Assembly: GCA_029717555.1 (NCBI GenBank) | Contig: JAMDHS010000081.1 | Coordinates: forward strand, 27,607 to 91,606 | DNA: 64,000 nucleotides | Direction of reading: 5' to 3' | From: Peribolospora baueri | Lineage: Eukaryota; Basidiomycota; Peribolosporomycetes; Peribolosporales; Peribolosporaceae | Shown: positions 37,732 through 40,676 of the stretch, one piece after another | Layout: each line of letters begins with the position of its first letter | Position numbering within the stretch: the first letter of the stretch is position 1 | The notes under the pieces: model-generated | What the model was told of the DNA's origin: nothing | Seen by the model: the letters and a program-made list of their open reading frames with translations, nothing else | Databases searched by the model: none | Program-made: the position numbers and the translations under genes

Positions 37732-39103
37732 CTACGAGCCCAAAACTCCTGCAAAGCCGATCGGGACAAACTGGTCAGGTGCGACGAGGTCTTCTCCCGG
37801 TTGGTACCCCTGCCGCTGCTGCTGCTGCTGCTGCTGTTGACCCGCGTTCCAAAGGGCCGACGGCTGCCACGAACTGACGTCAGCAGAGGCGGGGGCGAAA
37901 TGCAGGTCGTACGGAGGCGCTGGGACGGGCCGGTGGATGGCGAGGTCAGGAGTGGGGAGGCGATGAACGAGGTGGACGGGCTCGAGCCTGGTGGCCGCCG
38001 TCTTTTCCAACTCGGCGCGAGCGGCCTCTGGGGCGGAGAGGCGGCGGGCCTTGTGACCGCCGTCGCCGGTCCAGATGAATCCGGGGCTGCAGCCGTTGGT
38101 GTGGGTACCAGGCGGGAAGCCGGCATCGAAACCGGCGAGGCCGTCCACGGATCCGGGTTGGTGCTGCACCTCCTCGAAGTGCTTGAGCTGCCGACCGGGC
38201 TTTTTTACGCGACGTTTGGGCGAAACTTGGTAATAGCAACCGTCGGGAAACTTGCGCTTCATGCACTGGACACATGGTACGCTAGCGGGAGAAGAGCAAA
38301 GGCGGAGGGTGAGAGGCGGTGGCGACGGACGGACCGGAGACGCCCACAGACTCACAGGCCGTCGCACTTTCTATTTGACCGGAGAGGAGGAGGACGGCGC
38401 GGGTCATCGGACGACGTCCAAAGACGGGAAACGGCGAAAAAGGAACCGAAACGCACCTCTTGCTCAGTCTGCAGTTGGCGCAGGCGAGGAGGAGCCTCGA
38501 ACCGGCTCTTTGGGGCTGAGCACCGGGGAAAGGGTCGCGTTTCTTGTGCCAGCCGTAGAGATCCTCTATCGACGGAGGCTGGACTTGCCAGAAGGAAGGC
38601 GGGGGTGGAGGCGTGCGGGAGCCGGTCGTGTCTGCGGGCGTCGTCGGCGCTCGTGTGGGCTGGTAGAGAGGGCGGTGGTAGATGGAGATGGGTCGGGTCG
38701 GTTCGAAGGGGGCGTCGACGTGGCGGTAGTGAAAGTGGGGAGGATGAGCGGTGCTGAAAAGCGGGAGCGCGGGGTTGTCGTAGGCCGGCCGATCGTCGGG
38801 GGCGTAGGTGGACTGCTTGGGCTCGGTGGAAAACCAGCCGAGGTCGAGGCCCAAGGCGGAAGAGGTGGAGGAGGAGGTGTAGGAGGGATGGACGGCGCTG
38901 GGGGCGAGATGGGTATCGGCCATCGCCGAGGGCGTGTCGAGCCTCGGAGCGGGGAGTGGAAGCGATGTGGGAGGCAAGGGCGTGTCGAGGAGACCGCAAG
39001 AACGAATGCCGGGCAGGTTGTAGGATAATGGCCTGGCCCTGGCGTCGGGCGCTGGCTCGTCGAGGTCGTTGGCGGCGTAGGTGAGTGGGCTTGCGGCGGT
39101 CAT
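37732..39103 (-). CDS. Zn(II)2Cys6 fungal transcription factor
   Basis: Putative DNA-binding regulator unique to fungi. Exons 39103-38457, 38370-38356 and 38281-37732 total 1,212 nt, 403 residues. Residues 1 to about 200 are Pro/Ser/Tyr-rich. The binuclear zinc cluster is built across three exons: CANCRLSKR, then KCDGL from a 15-nt exon, then VPCVQCMKRKFPDGCYY. This gives spacing C-x2-C-x6-C-x5-C-x2-C-x8-C, the canonical six cysteines. A basic linker SPKRRVKKPGR follows. The C-terminal part includes FIWTGDGGHKARRLS and a Gln8 run. There is no visible fungal-specific middle homology domain and the cluster is central rather than N-terminal. Targets are unknown. Start MTAASPLTYAAND is the first ATG after a GTGGTG-rich leader. 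Confidence 0.83.
38356..38370 (-). other. 15-nt micro-exon carrying the third zinc-cluster cysteine
   Basis: Flanked on the minus strand by an AAATAG acceptor and a GTGAGTC donor. It encodes RKCDGL together with its neighbours and restores both frame and the sixth cysteine of the cluster. Skipping it keeps frame, because 15 is a multiple of three, but loses the cysteine. Confidence 0.8.
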
Positions 39104-40676
39104 GGTGGGAGATGGCGAGGGCGTCGGCTTGGACGTCGCGATGGTGGTGGTGGTGGCGTCGCGGTGGCGATGGTGTCGCGTCGCGTCGCCTCTTGAACGA
39201 CCCTCGGCTTGTTCTTGTCTCTATCTCGACGGAGCAGAAGAGGAGACTGGGTGGGATGGAAGAGTAAGAAGAAGGCGAGGGTTGGCCGTCGGGGCTTTTA
39301 TAGGGAAACGGGCGGCAGGGATCGGCAGTCGGCAGGGAGATGCGGGTTCGGGCTTGGGATTGAGTCTGTGGGAAAGAAGGAAAAGGAAAACAAGCATCGT
39401 CGACGGCGTCGATGGCAGTGATAGCCTTTGGTGGTCGTCCGTCGCCGCTATCTATCCGACCTCCATCTTCGGCCAGTCCTTCTTCATCTCCATCGTCGGT
39501 GAGGCCTTCCTTCGTCTTCCGCTCCCTTACGGACCACCGAAGACGGTGGCACGGGTGGAAGCGGCGGGGCTTTGCATTGGACCGCCGCCGCCGCCGTCGC
39601 CGCGGGTGGAACACGATGTCGAGTGAGAGAAGAGATGGGAAGGAGGAAGGAAAAAGGAAGAAAAAAGAAGGAACGAAGCAGGAAGGATGCGAGGGGCAAG
39701 CAGGGCCGAGTAGTGGCAGGGCAAGGCTGGCGCAGGGGCTGACAGCAACGGCAGGCACGGCCAAGGGTGGAGAAGAAGAAGGAGAAGTATAAGTATAAGG
39801 ATAGAGAGAAAGAGAAAGAGAAAAAGAAAGGAGCGATGAGAAAGAAGAATAGGACGACGACGACGACGACGACCTCCTCCTCTTCTAGAACATCTCCTCT
39901 TTCTCGTCCTCATCCACGTCCACGTCCACCTCGGGACGGCCAGACACGTGAGCGGAACGGCCAAAGGCGCAAGTTCATTTCCATTTCATTTCGGCTTTTA
40001 TCGCCGACTCGACTTTACTTTGTTCCTAGGCTGTTGCTTGGCTTAGGGCGTAAGCACTTCTAACAAGGCGCCCGCTCGGCATCGCATCCCATCGTCATAA
40101 CGTCCATTCGGTTCCCAACCTCCGTTATACGGCGACGACCACGACGACCAAGACCACGACGATCGTGATTAACCGCCGACGAGCGCCGGTCGAATCCAAT
40201 TCATCCTGGCGAACGTAAATGAAAGAACGTCCCTCCTTCCCTGATCGGCCTCGGCTCCCCCACAAAGAATCCATCCGCCGACGGAAGCACTCCCAAGCTA
40301 GCCAAACCGGTCCTCGATCAAATGCCCCTCTGTCGCTTTTTTAATGGCGTGGCTGCGTGCGGGGGAAGAAAAGGACAGGGGATCCCCCCACCATTGGCCA
40401 CACCTAGCTTCTCGTACAAGGAATAGGAGAAGGATGTCGCTGGCGCTCACTGACTGACTGACTGACCGACCGACCGACCGACCGACGGCACTCTCTATTC
40501 TCCACCGCCTTCTCCTACACGACGACGACGACGACGACGACATACGCGAGGCAGGGTATATCGGTGTGCCCGACGGAGGGTTAAAGCCGACCTTCAACCC
40601 ATACGTCAACGACGGAAAAAAACGCAAAAAATCCAACCGCGCGGCCCCGACGTCTACATCTAACCTCTCCTCTCCT
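39104..40676. other. Upstream region of the Zn2Cys6 gene
   Basis: 1.6 kb between two minus-strand genes. It contains GGTGGT/GACGAC triplet tracts, GA-rich stretches (39765-39835), a GACT/GACC tetramer run at about 40449-40485 and a CGA run near 40518-40540. ORFs of up to 470 codons in this region are antisense or repeat-derived and are not supported. Confidence 0.45.
40449..40485. repeat. (GACT)n(GACC)n tetranucleotide repeat
   Basis: Four ACTG units pass into five or six GACC units. The tract lies about 190-230 bp after the seryl-tRNA synthetase stop, on its 3' side. Confidence 0.85.

Follow-up and report, generated by a model that had tools for sequence, protein, structure and literature searches.

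A 15-nt microexon within the zinc cluster of a predicted fungal Zn2Cys6 regulator

Known fungal microexons and the layout of the regulator gene

Microexons are exons of at most about 30-36 nt that are flanked by spliceosomal introns. The closest described system is the Xlr2 regulator of Trichoderma virens, in which a 20-nt microexon in the zinc cluster encodes PCRRCE and thereby two cysteines (PMC11121469). The exon is present in the mRNA without glucose and missing with glucose, a behaviour for which the authors use the term 'switch-like', and the RNA-seq results given in that paper include zero reads joining exons 1 and 3 (PMC11121469). A second case in the same family is Rhizopus delemar I1CF81, for which the CeGAL study describes a two-residue exon that was mispredicted, so that five of the six cysteines were left (PMC10141177). 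Microexons of 2-10 residues are widespread in the P450 genes of Phanerochaete, where they were suggested by the authors to favour alternative splicing (PMC1184071). In Fusarium CYP621A a one-nucleotide exon forms part of a conserved motif; the protein cannot be built without it, and its inclusion was seen under several growth conditions (PMC12940212). No further papers on microexons in Zn2Cys6 genes, beyond those on Xlr2 and Rhizopus, were found among the matches listed from the openly licensed literature.

The exon described here resembles that of Xlr2 in being very short, in lying within a Zn2Cys6 cluster and in supplying cysteine to the DNA-binding domain. It differs in being 15 nt long and in frame and in encoding cysteine 3, whereas the exon of Xlr2 is not a multiple of three and contributes two cysteines. 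Xlr2 comes from an ascomycete and carries a fungal_trans domain, for which the regulator studied here gave no match, and its glucose dependence was seen by RNA-seq, while the present exon is predicted from the sequence. The tiny exon of the Rhizopus gene likewise lies inside the Zn2C6 cluster, but it was handled as an annotation error and not as regulation. The P450 microexons are also very short, but belong to enzyme genes. The microexon is therefore a new example of an already known kind.

The positions below refer to the window, which is the whole stretch of 64,000 nt that was analysed. The predicted gene and its parts are:

39103 to 37732, minus strand: Zn2Cys6 regulator gene; its three coding exons are 647, 15 and 550 nt long
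38457..39103, minus strand: exon 1, with the ATG at 39103, encoding the N-terminal region and cysteines 1 and 2 (ending ..LLLACANCRLSK AG/)
38371..38456, minus strand: intron 1, 86 nt, GTGCGT..AAATAG
38356..38370, minus strand: 15-nt microexon, phase 2 on both sides, encoding (R)KCDG(L) with cysteine 3
38282..38355, minus strand: intron 2, 74 nt, GTGAGT..CGCTAG
37732..38281, minus strand: exon 3, encoding cysteines 4 to 6 (VPCVQCMKRKFPDGC), a basic PKRRVKKPGR stretch and polyQ, with stop TAG
38281..38457, minus strand: span of the hypothetical skipped transcript, which would need a 175-nt intron, 38456-38282

The start of exon 1 is presumed; the ATG that opens the listed 273-aa frame was adopted. 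On the minus strand the microexon stands between ..AAATAG and GTGAGT. Exon 1 ends in ..AAG AG and exon 3 begins with C GTA CCA TGT, which gives the joined reading AG/A AAG TGC GAC GGC CT/C GTA across the microexon, the slashes marking the junctions. The spliced translation has 403 residues when the microexon is included (..ACANCRLSKRKCDGLVPCVQCMKRKFPDGCYY..) and 398 when it is skipped (..CRLSKSVPCVQC..), in the latter case with the frame open and an identical stop. In the frame of the gene, codon positions 1, 2 and 3 have a G+C content of 0.66, 0.55 and 0.77, which is compatible with coding sequence. A CAG-type repeat at 37815-37839 on the minus strand codes for eight consecutive glutamines close to the C-terminal end of the regulator. 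Neither Rfam, run at the gathering threshold, nor ARAGORN in bacterial mode gave a match in the window.

The zinc cluster with and without the microexon

The cysteines of Zn2Cys6 proteins are spaced in the range C-X2-C-X6-C-X5..12-C-X2-C-X6..8-C. With the microexon the spliced translation has the spacing C-X2-C-X6-C-X5-C-X2-C-X8-C, in agreement with this range. The cluster reads LLLACANCRLSK-RKCDGL-VPCVQCMKRKFPDGCYY and is followed by the basic stretch. Pfam Zn_clus (PF00172) is matched with 27.8 bits, against a cut-off of 21. Without the microexon cysteine 3 is gone and no Pfam family is found at E <= 10. The DNA-binding domain thus changes between inclusion and exclusion, as it does in switch-like microexons, with Zn_clus found only when the exon is present.

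Zn_clus is the sole Pfam family found in the regulator at E <= 10, and the fungal_trans or middle homology domain is absent from the result; this domain occurs in many Zn2Cys6 members and does not define them. The NCBIfam search of the regulator gave no match. The PDB search gave 16 weak matches, of which the best is the yeast heme activator Hap1/Cyp1 (E = 0.024). The gene product appears to be a fungal Zn2Cys6 (Gal4-type) transcription regulator that would bind DNA, and the microexon is required for the predicted DNA-binding domain. A fungal origin of the genome is suggested by its zinc clusters, its introns and the 22.1-Mb size of the assembly.

The exon was also compared with all other possible middle exons. 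The outer splice sites were fixed, and within 38456-38282 all AG..exon..GT arrangements were listed in which the exon had up to 100 nt and 40 nt or more remained on each side; this gave 20 possible middle exons in addition to skipping and full retention. For scoring, a profile was made from 12 of the 21 further zinc clusters detected in the same genome. The 15-nt exon ranks first with 33.7 bits; the next best, at 22.5 bits, are variants that have the 5' part of this exon in common with it but stop early, and skipping scores 7.6 bits. When the intervening sequence was shuffled 3000 times with dinucleotides preserved, no shuffle reached 33.7 bits and two came within 5 bits of it. The pattern of the exon with its splice sites, AGNNARTGYGAYGGNNNGTNNGT, has a single occurrence in the 22.1-Mb assembly, at the regulator gene, and the pattern search found no KCDG microexon elsewhere in the assembly.

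With 15 nt between two predicted GT..AG introns the exon falls within the size of a microexon. On these sequence comparisons the 15-nt exon at 38356-38370 is confirmed as real, with exact coordinates, and it would be expected in the RNA. This bears out what a preliminary description of the locus had claimed about its structure, namely that a micro-exon at 38356..38370 encodes KCDG within the zinc cluster, that its inclusion completes the six-cysteine spacing and that skipping keeps the frame and deletes cysteine 3.

Introns and zinc clusters elsewhere in the genome

The seven introns of this genome that served as reference are 68-115 nt long, in a small set (n=7) in which three placements were not made by score gain, two of them by hand and one (L006) by eye. 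The two placed by hand, of 74 and 68 nt, belong to the neighbouring seryl-tRNA synthetase gene, which was identified by a PDB match (E = 4.7e-35); Pfam on the single ORFs of this gene gave only a match below the cut-off. The introns inside other zinc clusters of the genome are 77, 80, 89, 95 and 115 nt long. The regulator introns of 86 and 74 nt fit the seven reference introns, whereas the 175-nt intron of a skipped transcript exceeds all seven, the intron searches having admitted a maximum of 179 nt or 200 nt so that longer introns could not show up. Short tandem repeats lie between the regulator and the synthetase gene, at 40452-40483 (GACT and then GACC units) and at 40519-40539 (ACG units).

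An internal intron is found in five of the 21 other zinc clusters, a list that excludes the regulator itself because its gene is split, and of which 14 loci were re-examined in a second pass. The five are:

L011: intron just before cysteine 3, profile gain 12.5 bits
L014: intron between cysteines 2 and 3, profile gain 11.5 bits
L006: intron between cysteines 2 and 3, no gain (29.9 vs 30.0 bits), placed by eye from the cysteine spacing
L017: intron between cysteines 1 and 2, profile gain 5.3 bits
L016: intron between cysteines 5 and 6, profile gain 6.0 bits

Three of these five clusters have the intron between cysteines 2 and 3, like intron 1 of the regulator. An intron directly after cysteine 3, like intron 2, was not found among the 21 other clusters. 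A zinc cluster interrupted by an intron is nothing unusual in this genome, and introns near the position of intron 1 are common. Weaker placements with a gain of <=4.3 bits, the largest of them in L020, L015 and L021, were left out of the count; those of L020 would be 116-120 nt long.

In intron 1, which lacks CTRAY, the one branch-point-like motif is a weak ATGAC located 33 nt before the 3' site; intron 2 has CTCAC at 28 nt before its own. Given its non-consensus branch point, intron 1 may be spliced less efficiently. As a test for weak splicing the branch-point motifs were rejected as non-discriminating, because the accepted intron of L014 has none of the motifs tested either.

The search of the genome with the regulator protein gave five matches, which are the two long exons of the gene itself and three weaker zinc clusters. 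The search for relatives gave 288 pattern stretches in general genome contigs and 31 in viral contigs, none of which was confirmed; neither collection is fungal. A similar cluster with an LKCDGI core, L001 (G000:C56:4941-5051), is uninterrupted in one open frame of 613 aa (ILLACGFCKHRKLKCDGIRPQCQQCAKRGLECQY); behind it stands RIRRRGPGK, which resembles the basic stretch of the regulator. The zinc-cluster match L019 (G000:C44:275551-275655) is interrupted by two in-frame stops, TGA and TAG, which could reflect decay of the copy or introns that were not recognised in the cluster. In the match L013 (G000:C14:7556-7630), which has an open frame of 499 aa, a glycine stands in the place of cysteine 4 (PTGGTC); five cysteines were counted by eye, and a long loop precedes CVYD. 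Unusually long loops, read without an intron, are found between cysteines 3 and 4 in L004 and before cysteine 6 in L010.

Constitutive or regulated use of the exon

The best-supported account, which we consider very probable, is that of a constitutive microexon between two ordinary introns that lie close together. Two short introns are predicted to split the zinc cluster, the first separating cysteines 2 and 3 and the second following closely on cysteine 3, and the exon most likely measures 15 nt because these two introns are so close. Intron definition is taken as the likely mode of splicing in fungi (PMC2219887). Each of the two introns would then be recognised separately, so that the microexon would require no special machinery, and practically every productive mRNA would contain it. 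A protein lacking cysteine 3 would be unable to form the DNA-binding domain.

The preliminary description had gone further and read the layout as that of a splicing switch. For this claim the layout is insufficient. The introns are of ordinary length, and by chance a third of all exons would have a length that is a multiple of three. Any exon within a zinc cluster would, if skipped, break the domain. A regulated switch at this locus thus appears possible but unsupported, and the idea of a regulated microexon is reasonable, though not new, because of the precedent of Xlr2 in Trichoderma.

Among the alternatives, the 15 bases might mimic KCDG by chance within a single 175-nt intron, in which case the gene would have no complete zinc cluster. 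This is the least credible of the readings: none of the shuffles matched the score of the exon, GT..AG sites and normal intron sizes are found on both flanks, and the five other cysteines, spaced much as in a cluster, would belong to no domain. A chance exon was accordingly ruled out by the enumeration of candidates together with the shuffles. A regulated cassette microexon, with growth conditions choosing between the DNA-binding form and a frame-preserved form that lacks cysteine 3 and is non-binding or dominant-negative, is improbable, though less so than the chance origin. It would fit the in-frame skipping with loss of the domain, the non-consensus branch point of intron 1 and the glucose-dependent zinc-cluster microexon of Xlr2 (PMC11121469). 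The annotation of Cryptococcus is also mentioned to contain numerous examples of exon skipping (PMC2219887), so that skipping is conceivable in basidiomycetes. The suggestion made for the Phanerochaete P450 genes, that alternative splicing is favoured by microexons, likewise speaks against the constitutive account (PMC1184071). Against a cassette switch, skipping would require an intron longer than all seven reference introns, exon skipping makes up only 12 of 193 alternative events in Ustilago maydis, where it is the rarest of four classes (PMC2219887), and the precedent of Xlr2 is itself without reads joining exons 1 and 3 and so is not one of simple skipping (PMC11121469). A toggle by true skipping is a shade less probable again. 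It would produce a five-cysteine form, C-X2-C-X7-C-X2-C-X8-C, maybe with one zinc in a four-cysteine site, that could act as a non-binding partner or inhibitor. No example of true exon skipping as a microexon switch in a Zn2Cys6 gene was found among the literature matches listed.

The microexon could also be part of a control by intron retention, in which poor removal of intron 1 or 2 would give truncated and probably degraded transcripts and so tune the amount of the regulator, with no alternative protein. We give this reading the same low probability as the cassette exon. The reading frame would end at codon 222, immediately behind KCDGL, if intron 2 were kept, at codon 257 if intron 1 were kept and at codon 274 if both were; these early stops agree with such a control but carry little weight, being common to retained introns generally. 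The predicted retention product is truncated and distinct from the proposed non-binding isoform. Retention accounts for 114 of the 193 alternative events in Ustilago (PMC2219887), and Xlr2 of T. reesei keeps the intron before its microexon in a sugar-dependent manner (PMC11121469). A passage from a paper on intron retention in Cryptococcus is without rates (PMC5006051), and a literature search for splicing data naming Rhodosporidium found none.

Were the skipping toggle true, it would be the second microexon switch in the Zn2Cys6 family and would act on another cysteine than that of Xlr2. Regulation of the exon would mean that in-frame exon skipping serves as an on/off control of a fungal DNA-binding domain, against the presumed rule of intron definition. 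For the constitutive microexon, which is the preferred account, the main importance lies in annotation. When the 15 nt are overlooked, the regulator would be reported with a broken DNA-binding domain, and annotation errors of this kind are documented at large scale for fungal Zn2Cys6 genes (PMC10141177).
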